A stretch of DNA of 64,000 nucleotides from Myxococcus guangdongensis. Lineage in GTDB: Bacteria > Myxococcota > Myxococcia > Myxococcales > Myxococcaceae. Under the pieces are notes generated by a model, which searched no databases, was not told the DNA's origin, and worked only from the letters and a program-made list of their open reading frames with translations. The stretch spans positions 1 to 64,000 of the forward strand of contig NZ_JAJVKW010000012.1 in NCBI RefSeq assembly GCF_024198255.1. Direction: 5' to 3'. A program made the position numbers and the translations under genes. Positions 6,961 to 43,617 of the stretch are shown one piece after another (the stretch's first letter is position 1; each line of letters starts with the position of its first letter).

Positions 6961-8385
6961 TCAGTGGACCACGACGGAGCCGACGTAGGCGTGGTGCTTC
7001 GGGTGGCACTCGTCGCCGACGTCCTGACGCTTCAGCGCTCCCGTGAAGACCTGGTCCGCCTGCCCCGCCCGCTTCACCGTCACCGAGTAGGGCACCGGGC
7101 TCGCTTCCCCCGCCGCCGGGTGGAAGTTGGCCGCCTTCAGGCACACGTCGTACGTCCCCGCCGGCGGCGTCGTCCCCGCGGCCCAGGCCACGTTCTCCGG
7201 CCCCATCCCGCTCGCCACGTCCCCCTCGAACCGCCCCTGGTCCGTGGCAACGCCAGGCCCCGGGTTGCCGTAGGACACAATCTTCCCCGTCGGCGTCCGC
7301 ACCACCAGGTCCGCGTCTCCGTCCCGACCCCACGTCGCCGTGAACCGCAGCGGCTCCCATCCGCCACCACCACCGCCCACGCACACGCCCGACGCGCACG
7401 TCCTCCCCGCCCCACAGACGTTGCCACAGCAGCCGCAGTTGTTCGGGTCCGACGACAGGTCCGCGCACACCGAGCCGCACTGGACCCTCGGCGACATGCA
7501 GCTCGCCGGATTGCACTCGAAGCCCCCCGGCGTGTTCACGCACTGCTCACCCGCCGGGCACGTGTCCATCCCCATCGCGCACTCGTCGATGTCCACACAC
7601 GTGAAGCCATTGCCCGTGTAGCCCGGCCGGCACGTGCACGTGTAGCTGCCCGGCGTGTTCGCGCAGTGCGCGTTCGGCGAGCACCGCGCCGCGCCGTTGG
7701 TGCATTCGTTGACGTCATGGCACACGCTCGGCTGGCCCAGGCACGTGTAGCCCGGCTCCATCTGGCACGTGGCGCTACAGCCATCACCCGCCACCCGGCC
7801 TCCGTCGTCACACTGCTCGCCCGTCCCCACCATCCCGTCCCCACAGAGCCCTGTCCCCGCGCTCCCCGTGGCCTCCACCGCGTCCACCTGGTACAGCGAC
7901 AGCACCGCGCCTCGCAGCGTCACGTAGCGGTAGGGCGCCGGCTGGATGTACGACACCAGCGTGGAGTGCGTCCCCAGGCCCAGGTCGAGCAGCTGCGCCT
8001 GCCCCGTCGCGATGATGCTCATGTCCGAGCGCCGGAACTCCACCTGCGTCACCACCCCCAGCGACAACCCCTGGTAGTAGATGCGCAGGGGCCCCGTGCC
8101 CTCCTCGCCCTGCCCCATGTCCAAGGTCAGCGCGCCGCCCAACAGGCTCAGGAAGCTCGCGGTCTGCCCGTCCGGCGCCCCCACCGCGTTCTGCGGATTG
8201 GCCACCAGCGTGACGCCACTCTGGACCACCGCGTTCGCGTAGTTCGGAGCCAGCGCCTGCTCCCGCGTCACCACGTCCTCCGTCGGCAACGTGTCTTCCT
8301 CGAGCCCGACTCCGCAACCACCCACGACGAATGCGAACGCCGCGCTCAACCAGCGCGACGCCGTGACACCACGATCGACCTTCAT
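6961..8385 (-). CDS. EGF-repeat lipoprotein, paralogue A of a myxobacterial family
   Basis: The protein has 474 residues from ATG 8385, which has GGAG six bases upstream. The open frame reaches back to 8655 without support. A lipoprotein signal ends in VVGGC. About residues 50-175 form a beta-rich domain (NAVGAPDGQ, LDMGQGEEG, FRRSDMSII, YRYVTLRG) shared with the paralogue at 9481-10752. Next come a CGDGMVGTGEQCDDGG type Cys-rich repeat and two calcium-binding EGF modules (DVNECTNG, DIDECAMG). After a short CCGNVCGAG segment there is a C-terminal domain with GDADLVVRTPTGK and GTYDVCLKAANF. It is probably a surface adhesion or matrix protein. The paralogue lacks the first of the two EGF modules. 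Confidence 0.72.
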   Translation of the reverse strand: MKVDRGVTASRWLSAAFAFVVGGCGVGLEEDTLPTEDVVTREQALAPNYANAVVQSGVTLVANPQNAVGAPDGQTASFLSLLGGALTLDMGQGEEGTGPLRIYYQGLSLGVVTQVEFRRSDMSIIATGQAQLLDLGLGTHSTLVSYIQPAPYRYVTLRGAVLSLYQVDAVEATGSAGTGLCGDGMVGTGEQCDDGGRVAGDGCSATCQMEPGYTCLGQPSVCHDVNECTNGAARCSPNAHCANTPGSYTCTCRPGYTGNGFTCVDIDECAMGMDTCPAGEQCVNTPGGFECNPASCMSPRVQCGSVCADLSSDPNNCGCCGNVCGAGRTCASGVCVGGGGGGWEPLRFTATWGRDGDADLVVRTPTGKIVSYGNPGPGVATDQGRFEGDVASGMGPENVAWAAGTTPPAGTYDVCLKAANFHPAAGEASPVPYSVTVKRAGQADQVFTGALKRQDVGDECHPKHHAYVGSVVVH

Positions 8386-10752: not shown

Positions 10753-10933
10753 TTCGCGCTCCTGGCATCCCCCCGGAATTGGGGACGGCCATGCTGCTCG
10801 CCGTCCTCCGCGGGCCCCGTTGGACCCTGGGACAAGGCTGATGGATGTCGAACCCTTGGCCCCGCATCCCACCCCGCTGCCGCGCGACGCGGGCCCGCCC
10901 CAGCGCTTCCGCGGCGGGCCCAGGCACCTCACG

Positions 10934-11255
10934 TCACGGCGAAGGCTGCCAGCTGAAGGTCCCGATGCGGGCCTCGCTGTCCTCGGTGCACTCGAACGAG
11001 GCCGGCGGGGCGCTCAGGCGTCCGGTGATGGGGGAACATCCTGCCCGTTGCTGCGTATCCGCAGGGTGCAGTCCACCGGCGCCGTCTCGCCCATCGGCGG
11101 GTCGAAGCCCTGGGCGAGCAGGCAGACCACATACGTCCCGCGCGGAGGCGTCTGCCCCCGGGCCCAGAAGACCGCCTCGGGCCCCTGGCACTCGAAGCCA
11201 CCCGGCCCCAGCCGCATCCTCCGCGCATCATCGTGTCCCTCGGCCCCCCGAGGAA
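10934..11255 (-). pseudogene. Frameshifted remnant of a third EGF-lipoprotein paralogue
   Basis: Minus-strand translation from about 11255 gives residues that align with the C-terminal domain of the adjacent paralogue: GPEAVFWARGQTPPRGTY against GPENVFWASGRTPPSGTY, followed by VVCLLAQGF. Near 11015-11040 the similarity jumps to another frame (GRLSAPPASFEC against QVTVSPRSFEC) and runs to a stop at 10934. The signal peptide, beta-rich domain and EGF region are missing, and a stop lies in frame just upstream. This is a 5'-deleted, frameshifted copy, so the family once had at least three members here. Confidence 0.68.
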
Positions 11256-37882: not shown

Positions 37883-38795
37883 AGTCCACCCCCTCGCAGA
37901 CGCGAGCCTTCGCGCGCAGCGTGTCGAGCAACCCCGTCTCCAGCTTCGCCAGGTAGCCCTGACGGTCCTTCACGCCGTAGACGAACTCCTCCAGCCAGGC
38001 GCGATACGTCTCCGGCTTGCGGGAGATGTCCTCCCACTTCACGTAGAAGTCGTTGTCCCGGTCATGGAAGCCCTGCACGAAGCTGGGGTGGCACCCCCAG
38101 GGCTCGTGCACCACGTGGCTCACGATGATGCCGGGCACCAGCGTGCGGTTGGGGTCCTTGCGGATGACCTCGGTGGGGACGATCTGCTCGGCCACGACGA
38201 TGACCTTGCGCGCGGCGAAGGCCACCTCCTTCTGCGAGCCGAGCAGGCCCCACACCTGCGCGTTGCCCTCCATGTCCGCGCGCTGGCAGTGGATGATGGC
38301 CACGTCCGGATGGAGCGCGGGCACGGTGGCCAGCTCACGGTCCGTGTACGGACAGCGCACCGTCTTGATGGCGGGGTTCACCCGTGCGATGTCCGCGCCC
38401 TGGTAGTTGTCGAGCGGCCAGAACGGCAGGCCCGCGCTCGCGGCGAGGAAGCGCGAGAGCAGCCCGAAGTGCGAGTACTCCTCCAGCTCCAGCCGCTCCG
38501 TGGAGGACGCCTCGCTGCGACGGCGGAGCGCGTGCAGGCTGCCCACGCCGGGGTTGCCCGCCCAGCTGAAGACGAGCTTCTTCACCGCGCCCGCCTCGAT
38601 GAGCTGGTCGTAGACCAGGTCCGGGGTGAGCCGGATGGCGGTGAGGTCCTTCACGCCCTGGCGGATGATTTCGTGGCCCGCGGCGAAGCAGATGAGGTGC
38701 GTGAAGCCGTCGATGACGATGGAGCTGCCGTCCTTCACGCTGGCCGAGATGGCCTCGCGCATGGAGCAGCGCTTGTCCACGGCCCCAGGCTTCAC
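37872..38795 (-). CDS. catI: 3-oxoadipate CoA-transferase, alpha subunit (CatI type)
   Basis: The protein has 307 residues from GTG 38795. The start overlaps the upstream gene's stop as GTGA, so translation is coupled; the frame further upstream lies within the aminotransferase gene and is not used. CatI-like motifs: DGFTHLICFAAGHEIIRQG, LTPDLVYDQLI, LVFSWAGNPGVGSLHALR, VNPAIKTVRCPYT and GCHPSFVQGFHDRDNDFY. It pairs with the beta subunit gene immediately downstream. Its role is activation of 3-oxoadipate to the CoA ester. Confidence 0.85.
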   Translation of the reverse strand: MKPGAVDKRCSMREAISASVKDGSSIVIDGFTHLICFAAGHEIIRQGVKDLTAIRLTPDLVYDQLIEAGAVKKLVFSWAGNPGVGSLHALRRRSEASSTERLELEEYSHFGLLSRFLAASAGLPFWPLDNYQGADIARVNPAIKTVRCPYTDRELATVPALHPDVAIIHCQRADMEGNAQVWGLLGSQKEVAFAARKVIVVAEQIVPTEVIRKDPNRTLVPGIIVSHVVHEPWGCHPSFVQGFHDRDNDFYVKWEDISRKPETYRAWLEEFVYGVKDRQGYLAKLETGLLDTLRAKARVCEGVDYGY

Positions 38796-40171
38796 AGCTT
38801 CACCCCCGCCGCGACCCGGGCGGGCGCGACCTTGGACACGTCGAGCGACAGCTCCCGCAGGCACTCCTCGAGGATGCGAAGCATGACGGCCACCTCGTGC
38901 TCACCGATGATGAGCGGCGGCGCGAAGCGGATGGTGGACTTGCCACACGACAGCAGCAGCAGGCCCTTGCGGAACGCGAGCTGCTCCAGCTCGCCCACGT
39001 AGGCGCTCGCGGGCTCCCGAGTCGCGGGGTCCACGAACTCCGCGCCCACCATCAGGCCCACGCCGCGCACGTCGCCGATGACGGGGTGCCGCGTCTGCAG
39101 CTCGCGCAGTCCCCGCTGGAGCAGCGCCCCGGTGGCGCGCACGGAGTCGAGCAGCCCCTCCACCACGTCCAGCGTGGCGAGCGCCGCCGCGCAGCACACG
39201 GGGTTGCCGCCATAGGTGCTGCCGTGCGAGCCGCGCGGCCACGTCATCACCGACTCCTTGGCGATGATGGCGCCCAGCGGCATGCCGGAGGCGATGCCCT
39301 TGGCGGACAGCAGGATGTCCGGCATCACGCCGAAGTGCTCCGCCGCGAACATGTGTCCGGTGCGGCCGATGCCCGACTGCACCTCGTCGAACACGAGCAG
39401 GATGCCGTGCGCGTCGCAGATGCGGCGCAGCTCTGTCAGGAAGCTCTTCGGGGGCACCACGTAGCCGCCCTCACCCAGGATGGGCTCCACGAAGATGGCG
39501 GCGACCTCGCGCGGGTCCACGTGGTTGACGAACCACTCGCGCTCCAGCGCCAGGGCCGGGTTGCACGCGTCGCCGCACGTCTGGGGCGCGCAGCCGTTGG
39601 GACAGCGGTACGGGTTGGCGTAGGGGACGTGGATGACGCCTGGCAGCAGCGGCCCGAAGAAGGCGCGCTGGGCCACCTTCGACGAGTTGAGCGAGATGGC
39701 GCCGTACGTGCGCCCGTGGAAGCCGCCCTTGAAGGCGACGATGTACTGGCGGCGCGTGTGGTGCCGCGCCAGCTTGATGGCGCCCTCCACCGCCTCCGTG
39801 CCGGAGTTGGTGAGGAAGACCTTCTTGGGTCCCATCTCGGGCAGGTAGCTGGCGAGCCGCGCGCAGAGCTTCGAGAAGGCGTCGTAGTAGAAGTCCGTGC
39901 CGCAGATGTGCAGGAAGCGGCCCGCGGCCTCCTGGACGGCCTTCACCACGTGCGGATGCGCGTGGCCCGTGGAGGCCACGGCGATGCCCGCCATGAAGTC
40001 GAGGAAGCGGTTGCCGTCGACGTCGTGGACCCAGGGGCCCTCGCCGCGCTCGACGACCAGCGGATACTCCTTGATGTACGAGGGGGAGCTGAAGCGCTGG
40101 TCCAGCTCGATGATGGCGCGCGCCTTCGGCCCCGGCAGGGCGGTCTTCACTTCGGGATGGAGCATGGTCAT
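38792..40171 (-). CDS. Class III aminotransferase, GabT-like
   Basis: The protein has 459 residues from ATG 40171, with AGGAG six bases upstream. PLP enzyme of the omega-aminotransferase class: FLTNSGTEAVEGAIKLAR, GGFHGRTYGAISL, VFDEVQSGIGRTGHMF and the PLP Lys in LLSAKGIASGMPLGAI. It is closest in look to 4-aminobutyrate aminotransferases, but it carries a Cys-rich insertion (CPNGCAPQTCGDAC) near 200 that is less usual. In this operon it could remove the beta-amino group of 3-aminoadipate or a related omega-amine. It overlaps the CoA-transferase gene by four bases. Confidence 0.85.
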   Translation of the reverse strand: MTMLHPEVKTALPGPKARAIIELDQRFSSPSYIKEYPLVVERGEGPWVHDVDGNRFLDFMAGIAVASTGHAHPHVVKAVQEAAGRFLHICGTDFYYDAFSKLCARLASYLPEMGPKKVFLTNSGTEAVEGAIKLARHHTRRQYIVAFKGGFHGRTYGAISLNSSKVAQRAFFGPLLPGVIHVPYANPYRCPNGCAPQTCGDACNPALALEREWFVNHVDPREVAAIFVEPILGEGGYVVPPKSFLTELRRICDAHGILLVFDEVQSGIGRTGHMFAAEHFGVMPDILLSAKGIASGMPLGAIIAKESVMTWPRGSHGSTYGGNPVCCAAALATLDVVEGLLDSVRATGALLQRGLRELQTRHPVIGDVRGVGLMVGAEFVDPATREPASAYVGELEQLAFRKGLLLLSCGKSTIRFAPPLIIGEHEVAVMLRILEECLRELSLDVSKVAPARVAAGVKL

Positions 40172-40192: not shown

Positions 40193-41752
40193 TCAGCCCA
40201 TCCGTGTCTGCGCCTGCTCGCGCATGAATTGAGCGACGTAGTAGGGGCCGCAGCCGCCCTTGCCGGACCCGCCGCTGCCCTTCCAACCGCAGAAGGACTG
40301 CACGCCGGGCCACGCGCCCGTCGTCGCGCCCGTGCGGCGGTTGGCGTAGAGGACGCCCGCCTCGGCCTGGGCCATGAAGCGCTCCACGTCCTCGTCGCCG
40401 CGGCTGAAGATGCCGGCGGTGAGGCCGTAGTCGCAGTCGTTGGCCAGCCGGAGCGCCTCGTCCAACGTGGAGAAGCGCGTCACGCCGACGAAGGGCAGGA
40501 ACAGCTCTTCGCGCATGAGGCGATGTCCGTGCGACAGCGCCACCACCGTGGGCTCCACGAAGTACCCCTTCGCGAGCGCCGCATCCAGGCGAGGACGTCC
40601 ACCGCCGGCCATCACCGCGCCGTCCTGACGGGCCTCGTCCACGGCGCGCTCGAAGCGCTTCACCGCCGCCGCGTTGATGACGGGGCCGGTGAAGACGGAC
40701 GCGAGCGACGGGTCCCCCACCTGCGCGGCGCGCGCCTTCGCGGCGAGGCCATCGGTGAACGCGTTGTACAGCGACTCGTGCACGTAGATGCGCGACAGCG
40801 CGCTGCACTTCTGGCCGGACATGCCGAAGGCGGAGCGGAAACAACCCTCGATGGCGGCCTCCAGGTCCGCGTCGCGACAGACGATGGCCGGGTTCTTCCC
40901 GCCCAGCTCCAGGAGGCACGGCCGCACCCGGCCCGTGGACATCTGCCGGTGGAGCTCCATGCCCACCGCCTTGCTCCCGGTGAAGGACACCCCGTCGATG
41001 CCGGGGTGGCGCACCAGCGCCGCGCCCACCGTCTCGCCCTCGCCGTGCGCGACCTGGAAGACGCCGGGAGGCAGGCCCGCGTCGGCGAGCGCCTGGTACA
41101 GGCCCTCCGCGCACCAGGGCGTCTCCTCGCTGGGCTTGAGGATGACGCTGTTGCCGCCGAGCAGCGCGCCGCCGCTCATCCCCGCCGCGAGCGCGAGCGG
41201 GAAGTTGAACGGCGAGATGATGACGAAGACGCCGTAGGGCCGCAGCACGCTGCGCGTGTCCTCGTTGGGGGACAGCCGCGCCATGGGCCGCGAGTAGCCC
41301 TCCGCCTGCTCGAGCTGACCGGCGTAGTAGCGCAGCAGGTCCGCGGACTCCTCCACGTCACCGAGCGACTCGAGGCGGCTCTTGCCCACCTCCAGCGTCA
41401 TGCGCGCGGACAGCGCCATGCGCCGCTCGGAGATGAGGTCCGCGGCGCGGCGGAGGATGCGCACGCGCTCCTGCCACGGCGTCGCGCCCCAGCCGCGCTG
41501 GGCCTCGCGCGCCACGCGCACCACCCGGTCCACCTCGGCCACGGGCGTGCGGTGCACGGACACGAGCACCTCGTCCGGCCGCGCCGGGTTGCGGCTCTGA
41601 AGCAGGTCTCCGCTCCGGAACGCCTCGCCCCCGAGCCACGACGGCAGCTCTCCGCCCAGCTTCGAGCGCACGGCGGTGAGCGCCTCGTCGAACTGCGCGT
41701 GCAGCGCGGACAGGTCCGCCTCCAGCACCGAGTAGGTGATGCGGAAACTCAT
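40193..41752 (-). CDS. Aldehyde dehydrogenase, 1-pyrroline-5-carboxylate dehydrogenase-like
   Basis: The protein has 519 residues from ATG 41752, overlapping the upstream aminotransferase stop as ATGA. A longer same-frame opening to 43384 runs antisense-free through the aminotransferase and is spurious. Motifs: IISPFNFPLALAAG, ILKPSEETPWCAEG, SFTGSKAVGMEL, LLELGGKNPAIV with the general-base Glu and FGMSGQKCSALSRI with the catalytic Cys. Length and layout match RocA-type glutamate-semialdehyde dehydrogenases. Such enzymes accept amino-aldehydes that cyclise to a pyrroline. 3-Amino-6-oxohexanoate from beta-lysine would cyclise in exactly this way. Confidence 0.85.
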   Translation of the reverse strand: MSFRITYSVLEADLSALHAQFDEALTAVRSKLGGELPSWLGGEAFRSGDLLQSRNPARPDEVLVSVHRTPVAEVDRVVRVAREAQRGWGATPWQERVRILRRAADLISERRMALSARMTLEVGKSRLESLGDVEESADLLRYYAGQLEQAEGYSRPMARLSPNEDTRSVLRPYGVFVIISPFNFPLALAAGMSGGALLGGNSVILKPSEETPWCAEGLYQALADAGLPPGVFQVAHGEGETVGAALVRHPGIDGVSFTGSKAVGMELHRQMSTGRVRPCLLELGGKNPAIVCRDADLEAAIEGCFRSAFGMSGQKCSALSRIYVHESLYNAFTDGLAAKARAAQVGDPSLASVFTGPVINAAAVKRFERAVDEARQDGAVMAGGGRPRLDAALAKGYFVEPTVVALSHGHRLMREELFLPFVGVTRFSTLDEALRLANDCDYGLTAGIFSRGDEDVERFMAQAEAGVLYANRRTGATTGAWPGVQSFCGWKGSGGSGKGGCGPYYVAQFMREQAQTRMG

Positions 41753-43113
41753 GACGCCTCCTGGAAGAAGTGGTGGATGCCGCGGGCGAGCGTGTCGACC
41801 AGCTCGTCGACCTCCGCCTCGGTGATGACCAGCGGGGGGCCGACCATGAGCAGGTCCCCGTTCGTCCCGTCCGCGTGGCCCGTGTTGGACCAGAGGACGA
41901 GCCCTCGCTCGAACAGCGCCGCGAGCAGTCGCTCGATGACCTTGCGCGCGCGCGGGAAGGGGCGCTTGCTCGCGATGTCCTCGACCAGCTCGATGCCGGC
42001 CATCAGCCCCACGCCCTGCACGGAGCCGACGTGCGGCAGCGTGCCCAGCGCCTCGCGCAGCCGTCGCTGGAGGTGCGCGCCCACGCGCTCGGCGTGGGCC
42101 ACCAGGTCGTGCCGCTCGTAGTAGTCGAGCACCGCCAGCCCCGCCGCCGTCATCGCGGGCGCCTGGAGGTACGTCTGCGCGTGCATGAAGCCGCCCGAGC
42201 CCCGGCGCAGCTCCTCCAGGTGCTCTTCGCGGATGAGCAGCGCGCTCAAGGGCGCGTAGCCCCCGCTGATGCCCTTGCCGAGCACCAGCACGTCCGGCGT
42301 GAAGCCGTAGAGGTCGCTGGCGAAGAAGCGGCCGGTGCGACCACAGCCGCACATCACCTCGTCGGCGATGGTGAGGATGCCGTACTCGCGACACACGGCG
42401 CTCACGCGCTCGAAGTAGCCGGGCGGCGGAGGCGACGCGCCCGCGGACGAGCCGATGACGGGCTCCGCGATGAAGGCGGCGATGGTGTCCGGGCCCTCGC
42501 GGCGAATCGTCTCCTCGAGCAGCCGCGCGTAGTGCTCGGCGCCGTCGCGCGCGTAGTCCTCCAGGCCGGAGCGGTACGGGTACGGCGCGGCCGTGGTGAC
42601 GACCTCCGCCAGCATGGGGCCGAAGAAGGTCTTGTAGTGGGGCCGGCCCGACAGCGAGAGCGCGTACAGCGTGTTGCCGTGGTAGCCGGGCACGCGCGCG
42701 ATGACCTTGCCGCGCTGGGGCTCGTCTCGCTCCACCCAGAGCTGGCGGACGAACTTCACCGCGGCCTCCACCGCCTCGGAGCCCGAGCCGAGGAACGCGG
42801 CGCGCGTGAGCCCCTGGGGCGCGTGGGCGCACAGGCGCGAGGCGAGCTCCTCGGTGACGTCGGTGGTGAAGTGGGTGCCGTTGACGTAGGCGACGCGCAG
42901 GAGCTGCTCGTGGATGCGGTCCGCCACCTCGCGGTTGCCGTGGCCCACGCTGGCCACGAGCGCGCCGGCGGAGGCGTCCAGGTAGCGCTTGCCGCTCGCG
43001 TCGAAGAGGTGGACGCCCTGACCGTGCGTCACCACGGGGAAGTCGCGCGCGAGATTGCGCAGCAGCACGTTCCCCTGGGGGTAGCGCACCGTGTGCCTGG
43101 CTTCTTCCCGCAT
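41749..43113 (-). CDS. Class III aminotransferase, first gene of operon
   Basis: The protein has 454 residues from ATG 43113, with GGAGG seven bases upstream; the frame to 43248 is not supported. PLP motifs: AFLGSGSEAVEAAVKFVR, VPGYHGNTLYALS, TIADEVMCGCGRTGRFF and the PLP Lys in VLGKGISGGYAPLSALL. It belongs to the broad diamine/beta-amino-acid branch rather than to GabT, so the two operon aminotransferases probably act on different amino groups. A cobalamin riboswitch lies 282 bases upstream and a four-base overlap couples it to the aldehyde dehydrogenase gene. Confidence 0.85.
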   Translation of the reverse strand: MREEARHTVRYPQGNVLLRNLARDFPVVTHGQGVHLFDASGKRYLDASAGALVASVGHGNREVADRIHEQLLRVAYVNGTHFTTDVTEELASRLCAHAPQGLTRAAFLGSGSEAVEAAVKFVRQLWVERDEPQRGKVIARVPGYHGNTLYALSLSGRPHYKTFFGPMLAEVVTTAAPYPYRSGLEDYARDGAEHYARLLEETIRREGPDTIAAFIAEPVIGSSAGASPPPPGYFERVSAVCREYGILTIADEVMCGCGRTGRFFASDLYGFTPDVLVLGKGISGGYAPLSALLIREEHLEELRRGSGGFMHAQTYLQAPAMTAAGLAVLDYYERHDLVAHAERVGAHLQRRLREALGTLPHVGSVQGVGLMAGIELVEDIASKRPFPRARKVIERLLAALFERGLVLWSNTGHADGTNGDLLMVGPPLVITEAEVDELVDTLARGIHHFFQEAS

Positions 43114-43367
43114 CGTCCGTCCTCCACGCAGCGCGGACGACCGGAGGTCGCCCGACAGGGCTCCCGCGTGGAAGAAGGGCAGTCGCGATGCACGCGTGAG
43201 CGCACACCAGGCTCCGACTGGAGCCCACGGACCGACCTTCGCCCCCACGGGCGACTGGAGACACGGGGGATGGAGGTCGGAGAAGTCGAGCGTGCGTGAG
43301 GGCCCGTCGAGGCACGAGCGCCGCTCGAACCTTCCGGCCGTCCCACGCGGCTCCAGGTCGAAACCGT
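43114..43367 (-). other. Leader between riboswitch and first operon gene
   Basis: This 254-base stretch holds no supported gene. It contains a perfect hairpin, TCGCCC-CCAC-GGGCGA (43239-43254), and the GGAGG ribosome site of the first aminotransferase gene. Additional RNA control elements may lie here, but none is recognised. Confidence 0.4.
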
Positions 43368-43386
43368 CCGTGGATTTCTCCCACGG
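43368..43386 (-). terminator. Hairpin just after the riboswitch aptamer, possible expression platform
   Basis: On the minus strand CCGTGG and CCACGG pair around a seven-base loop (GAGAAAT), beginning 10 bases after the aptamer's last conserved base. A short run, ACGGTTTCG, follows. It could act as an intrinsic terminator or as part of a switch, although the U tract is weak. Confidence 0.4.
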
Positions 43387-43395
43387 CCGGATGCG

Positions 43396-43578
43396 GGCAG
43401 GTCTTCGGGCTCGTGAGCGCTTCGGCTTTTGAGGGCCGGCTTCCTACGACTCGTCGCTTCCCAGCTCCCCGAGGGAACCAGTGCGGATGACGAGGCTCGT
43501 TCTCACTTACCGCTGCGGGGCAGCCCCGGAATCGAACCGGGTTCCCTTTTAAGCTCGGACCGAGGTCCGGGCACCAAC
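43396..43578 (-). promoter_or_regulatory. Cobalamin (adenosylcobalamin-class) riboswitch
   Basis: Read on the minus strand the element contains the conserved cobalamin-riboswitch segments in order. They are GGTGCC (43570-43575), a P2 hairpin CGGACC/GGTCCG, AAAAGGGAACCCGGTTCGAT (43531-43550), GCTGCCCCGCAGCGGTAAG (43506-43524), CACTGG, GGGAAGC, AGGAAGCC and finally GAGCCCGAAGACCTGCC (43396-43412). Spacing and order fit the known aptamer. Bound cobalamin usually lowers expression of the downstream genes. Those downstream here are the two-aminotransferase/CoA-transferase/thiolase operon, not B12 synthesis or transport. Confidence 0.9.
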
Positions 43579-43587
43579 ATGGGGCGG

Positions 43588-43617
43588 TATGTACTGTTCG
43601 CCTCTTCGGACTGTCAA
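43588..43617 (-). promoter_or_regulatory. Sigma-70-type promoter of the riboswitch operon
   Basis: On the minus strand a perfect -35 TTGACA (43612-43617) is followed after 18 bases by TACATA (43588-43593) as a fair -10. The predicted start near 43581 falls directly before the first conserved riboswitch base, which supports the assignment. Confidence 0.65.

Follow-up and report, generated by a model that had tools for sequence, protein, structure and literature searches.

A cobalamin riboswitch in front of a putative B12-independent beta-lysine degradation operon in Myxococcus guangdongensis

Cobalamin regulons are known to comprise genes for cobalamin biosynthesis, B12 transport, cobalt transport, and isozymes of B12-dependent enzymes (PMC3766115). 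When both isozymes of a pair are encoded in one genome, it is the B12-independent isozyme that is found under riboswitch control (PMC2211319); Bacillus subtilis, which has metE without metH, carries no riboswitch there (PMC9600662). Control in the positive direction also exists, activating corrinoid riboswitches having been reported (PMC10653944). Within the Myxococcaceae, riboswitches of the same class (Rfam RF00174) lie in front of metE, nrdA, and cbiM, a cobalt transporter gene, indicating that the isozyme logic is in use in this family.

Here, we analyze a stretch of 64,000 nucleotides of the Myxococcus guangdongensis genome (the window), in which an RF00174 riboswitch precedes an operon for amino acid degradation. 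As with metE (alongside metH) and nrdAB (alongside nrdJ), the riboswitch lies before a putative B12-independent replacement, and the B12-dependent counterpart is encoded in the same genome. Unlike those cases, the target would be a multi-enzyme alternative catabolic route, and the counterpart would be lysine 5,6-aminomutase. By analogy, the operon appears to follow the isozyme rule at the level of a whole route.

The proposed route resembles parts of several described pathways. It would have its start, lysine and beta-lysine, in common with the KamA-KamDE-Kdd-Kce-Kal lysine fermentation. That fermentation, however, uses a B12-dependent 5,6-aminomutase and ends in acetoacetate and crotonyl-CoA, and its enzymes are absent from the operon. 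Like the end of the beta-ketoadipate pathway (PcaIJ/CatIJ, PcaF), the operon pairs a CoA-transferase with a 3-oxoadipyl-CoA thiolase-like enzyme, but it is fed by two aminotransferases and an enzyme similar to 1-pyrroline-5-carboxylate (P5C) dehydrogenase (P5CDH), and its CoA-transferase is nearer to glutaconate CoA-transferase than to PcaIJ. Like the P5C route (ornithine aminotransferase plus P5C dehydrogenase), it would use an aminotransferase and then a P5CDH-type enzyme acting on a pyrroline/amino-semialdehyde equilibrium; unlike that route, the predicted substrate has an additional carbon as well as a beta-amino group, and a second transamination and thiolysis would follow. The literature searched, which was open access only, contained no paper on a 3-aminoadipate, beta-lysine transaminase, or pyrroline-5-acetate pathway, and with that restriction the result is weak evidence.

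Aptamer, promoter, and operon in the window

A sequence-only reading of the window had recognized a complete cobalamin aptamer with a TTGACA promoter at its 5' side, facing an aminotransferase/CoA-transferase operon, and had proposed a covariance-model search. That search (cmscan) bore the reading out. A complete RF00174 aptamer runs from 43593 to 43379 on the minus strand, with a score of 105.3 bits (E value of 2.5e-25) that is well above the gathering threshold of 31.5 bits and with an untruncated match to model positions 1 to 189. It is the sole Rfam match within the 64-kb window and the top scorer of four RF00174 matches genome-wide. The conserved core (AAAAGGGAACCCGGU, GCUGCCCCGCA, CACUGG, GGGAAG, and GACCUGCC) is present, and the same core is found in the aligned relatives.

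Other cobalamin riboswitches were also seen. One in the host precedes a gene for a 4HBT hotdog thioesterase-like protein (L014, 10558-10797, minus strand; genome C16:210557-210796). At locus L013 (plus strand), two riboswitches lie 4 kb apart (6975-7221 and 10915-11131), one before a TonB-dependent receptor gene, likely for B12 uptake, and the other before a gene for a Cys-rich lipoprotein of a type that follows a riboswitch in other relatives as well (L042 and L045).

The promoter (43588-43617, minus strand) consists of a -35 box TTGACA at 43617-43612, an 18-nt spacer, and a -10-like box TACATA at 43593-43588 that coincides in part with the unpaired positions at the start of the RF00174 model. 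The range 43396-43617 singled out earlier takes in this promoter and nearly the whole aptamer. Alignment placed both boxes at the same position in those relatives whose leader is intact, and both are also kept in the relic leaders of the KamD-less genomes described below. A generic promoter scan did not list the TACATA promoter; the scan demands a T at the last -10 position. The aptamer lies on the same (minus) strand as the operon, the next gene being that for the first aminotransferase (AT1); some 280 nt separate its start codon from the 3' side of the aptamer (272 to 294 nt in 13 sequences). We regard the identity of the cobalamin riboswitch and its linkage to the operon as being as good as certain.

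The operon runs in one direction through six enzyme genes, encoding AT1, an aldehyde dehydrogenase (ALDH), a second aminotransferase (AT2), CoA-transferase subunits A and B, and a thiolase, and then through a gene for a small protein, all on the minus strand. AT1 (41749-43113) is a class III aminotransferase (PF00202, 292 bits) whose gene overlaps the dehydrogenase gene in an ATGA. The ALDH (40193-41752; PF00171, 461 bits) is nearest to P5C dehydrogenases: its best NCBIfam match is L-glutamate-gamma-semialdehyde dehydrogenase, and its best solved relatives are all P5CDH/PutA proteins. Because it nonetheless scores under the curated cut-offs of the P5C dehydrogenase models TIGR01237 and NF002852 (391 versus 660 bits and 416 versus 648 bits, respectively), its predicted substrate is a related pyrroline/semialdehyde rather than P5C. 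AT2 (38792-40171), also of class III, matches NF004426 above the cut-off (600 bits) and has GABA-aminotransferase-like solved relatives. The CoA-transferase subunits A (37872-38795) and B (37115-37882), both PF01144 members and the former of the glutaconate CoA-transferase type, have 1POI_A and 1POI_B as their best solved relatives. The thiolase (35893-37089) fits best to the 3-oxoadipyl-CoA thiolase models, with scores just under the curated cut-offs (NF006551, 552 versus 605 bits; TIGR02430 pcaF, 543 versus 597 bits). The small protein (35561-35893), which matched no Pfam or NCBIfam family, has a counterpart of 46 to 67% conservation at the corresponding position in most relatives. Directly downstream of the operon lies a gene for a secreted protein that has FG-GAP repeats and, at its C terminus, a lysyl oxidase domain (33480-35582, minus strand), which adjoins the operon also in genome G055.

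Does the host also have the B12-dependent route? The sequence-only reading had recommended a search for kamDE, and both genes are present. KamD (763 bits) is encoded outside the operon, with Kdd, KamE, and Kce within about 8 kb of kamD and all of them above the NCBI cut-offs. The genome that bears the riboswitch thereby holds the B12-dependent counterpart, as in a replacement of the metE/nrdAB type. KamA of the lysine 2,3-aminomutase type is encoded elsewhere in the genome, beside a diverged KamA-like neighbor. This neighbor (L011, 9633-11060, minus strand) is a radical SAM protein whose only solved relative is lysine 2,3-aminomutase; it adjoins KamA across the family, and three small genomes with neither KamD nor the operon gave no match to it. 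The B12-dependent route and the operon could both start from beta-lysine.

Co-occurrence of the riboswitch and KamD

We compared 96 Myxococcaceae genomes by pairing the coordinates of AT1 orthologues with RF00174 matches. The operon is present in 20 of them, including the host, and the 19 other AT1 orthologues are 81 to 90% identical to that of the window. An RF00174 riboswitch lies immediately upstream on the same strand in 17 of these 20 genomes. KamD is encoded in all 17 operon genomes with the riboswitch versus none of the 3 without it, a contrast that reflects the loss of KamD and riboswitch in one clade and not three independent events. These three genomes (G032, G033, and G034) belong to one genus and lack Kdd as well as KamD, with KamA kept; a fourth member of the genus (G035) has KamD and Kdd and no operon. 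That the relatives without the B12-dependent lysine route have also lost the switch suggests that the operon is a spare route turned off by B12.

The gene order of the operon is constant in the sixteen relatives read, save for G038 and G032 to G034, and the flanking genes differ in most. In G038, where KamD is still present, CoA-transferase A, CoA-transferase B, and the thiolase are missing between AT2 and the small gene; in G032 to G034, no match was found for the small gene at the operon end. The number of riboswitches varies as well: G029 has two in tandem before AT1 (L077, 3333-3571 and 4180-4395), and Archangium lansinium (G003) has a second one at the far end of the operon, converging on it (L078, 13664-13883, minus strand).

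The three KamD-less genomes retain traces of the riboswitch. Alignment of their leaders revealed that the promoter, along with the initial ~30 nt of the aptamer, survives (CTTGACAAGCCAAAGAGGC...TTGGTGCCTG) and that the remainder is gone. A profile built from intact species to cover their promoter and the 5' part of the aptamer, used in an untargeted nhmmer search of 455 kb, found exactly the G032 to G034 sites (E values of 0.0007 to 0.003), at the expected position and strand. By pairwise Smith-Waterman comparison, which discriminated less well than the profile, the relics scored 44 to 51, and the maxima of the shuffled sequences were 47 to 55.

The reverse situation is found in G065 and G075, both of which encode KamD. 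Here the riboswitch and leader are kept and the operon is deleted, with different deletion end points: 35 codons of AT1 are left in G065, and in G075 the leader extends to the start codon and is followed by the thiolase end and the small gene. The simplest reading of these genome comparisons is that either route may stand in for the other and that a switch would be of use only in genomes having both. The sequence-only reading had suggested that the operon could be a B12-free replacement of the KamDE route, and this suggestion gains support from the KamD pattern, the relic leaders, and the two operon deletions.

Outside the family, operon copies of 48 to 67% identity occur in other Myxococcota, in Bdellovibrionota-type MAGs, and in one Gemmatimonadetes MAG, and no cobalamin riboswitch was found near any of the distant copies scanned. 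KamD and Kdd are absent from four of six distant myxobacterial genomes tested, and none of these four, which may never have had one, has a riboswitch at the operon. Two genomes from another family of the order (G134 and G144) encode KamD and the operon with no riboswitch at the operon; the rule is therefore not universal.

A proposed beta-lysine route and its substrate

We think it probable that the riboswitch controls a B12-independent operon for beta-lysine degradation that serves as a spare for the KamDE route, where we infer the substrate, the ligand response, and the direction of control. With somewhat less assurance, we favor the view that the operon encodes an undescribed myxobacterial lysine pathway, repressed by B12 since a B12-dependent route coexists, and that the switch is discarded once that route is lost. 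When adenosylcobalamin is ample, the riboswitch would keep the operon off, and lysine would be degraded via KamA, KamDE, Kdd, and Kce; a shortage of cobalamin would allow the operon to be expressed. One aminotransferase would then remove the 6-amino group of beta-lysine to yield 3-amino-6-oxohexanoate. Ring closure of this product should give 1-pyrroline-5-acetate, a homologue of P5C with one more carbon. The P5CDH-like enzyme would oxidise this compound to 3-aminoadipate, and the second aminotransferase would convert 3-aminoadipate to 3-oxoadipate, with either order of AT1 and AT2 compatible with the scheme. The CoA-transferase would form 3-oxoadipyl-CoA, and the thiolase would cleave it to succinyl-CoA and acetyl-CoA. 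In this scheme, which is built from predicted chemistry, every operon enzyme would have one place and none would need B12.

Can the operon be tied to lysine itself? Co-occurrence of KamA, considered as proof of the substrate, was given little weight. KamA is found nearly everywhere in the family, also in some genomes having neither route, so its presence by itself does not link the operon to lysine. A different reading is that the operon is repressed by B12 and degrades another amino acid or a polyamine, its connection to B12 running through, for example, methylmalonyl-CoA mutase and the supply of succinyl-CoA. Succinyl-CoA is also a product of methylmalonyl-CoA mutase, and it is the end product that the thiolase logic gives for the operon. 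Moreover, AT1, AT2, and the ALDH match broad families only, and a KamA gene is found neither within the window's operon nor within the operon elsewhere in the family. Against this reading, the loss of the riboswitch coincides with the loss of KamD and Kdd, which are lysine-specific steps. In addition, the P5CDH-like and 3-oxoadipyl-CoA thiolase-like enzymes and the dicarboxylate-type CoA-transferase fit the predicted beta-lysine chemistry step by step. Finally, the cluster of G134 (L138) contains a KamA-like gene, 73% identical to the host's second KamA and, by eye, adjoining an Lrp-type regulator gene; this in-cluster gene is the best direct link of the operon to an aminomutase product and, among the KamA observations, the one that carries weight. 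We consider another substrate unlikely. The comparative genomics makes a B12-free spare lysine route well supported, as a reading that draws on one KamD-loss clade together with the predicted chemistry.

The leader and the direction of control

Between the aptamer and AT1 lies a conserved structured leader (43114-43378, minus strand) that is the probable expression platform, with 79% mean column identity over 11 species and a folding z score of -4.1. Directly 3' of P1 is a hairpin, CCGTGG...CCACGG with loop GAGAAAU (43368-43386, minus strand), a candidate P13 whose stem is present in all 11 species aligned and includes one compensatory change (C-G to G-C). Farther downstream, a helix predicted to sequester the Shine-Dalgarno (SD) sequence (43121-43174, minus strand) is formed by pairing of CTTCCACGC (43166-43174) with GCGTGGAGG (43121-43129), and pairing is possible along most of this helix in 11 of 11 species. 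An expression platform with an intrinsic terminator was rejected, there being no such terminator on the operon's strand of the leader. This result, the hairpin after P1, and the SD-hiding helix favor translational or Rho-dependent control. Repression would most likely occur by blocking ribosome access to the AT1 SD and start codon, or by Rho.

Does cobalamin turn the operon off or on? Computed folds with P1 forced or forbidden left the SD paired in nearly all states, and no ligand-dependent switch was visible in them. In some species only, the 3' strand of P1 (CCCGCAUC) and the start-codon region (GAUGCGGG) are complementary, so P1 formation could free the AUG in those species; together with the activating corrinoid riboswitches noted above, this complementarity would suit a switch by which cobalamin activates the operon along with the KamDE route. 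The complementarity, however, shrinks to about 5 bp at L078, L079, and L089, the SD pairing just described speaks against such an ON switch, and activation leaves unexplained both the loss of the switch with KamD and the dispensability of the operon where KamD is present. We therefore view an ON switch as quite improbable. The OFF direction that we prefer is inferred from the evolutionary pattern and from precedent. A divergent MFS efflux gene begins on the other strand just upstream, but an accidental linkage of the operon to a riboswitch serving another nearby gene is rejected as highly implausible, given the same strand, the fixed distance of about 280 nt in 17 of 20 genomes despite different flanking genes, and a leader conserved up to the AT1 start codon.

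If the proposed repression of a spare lysine route is true, the cobalamin regulon would gain a target of a new kind, namely, a complete alternative route of catabolism whose B12-dependent counterpart is lysine 5,6-aminomutase. A lysine pathway not described so far, with a specified set of enzyme activities, would be predicted as well. The relatives would represent a natural experiment, in which those that lost the B12 route keep a relic of the switch and those that lost the operon keep an orphan switch, and this would make the idea of a riboswitch as a selector of spare routes directly testable in Myxococcus.
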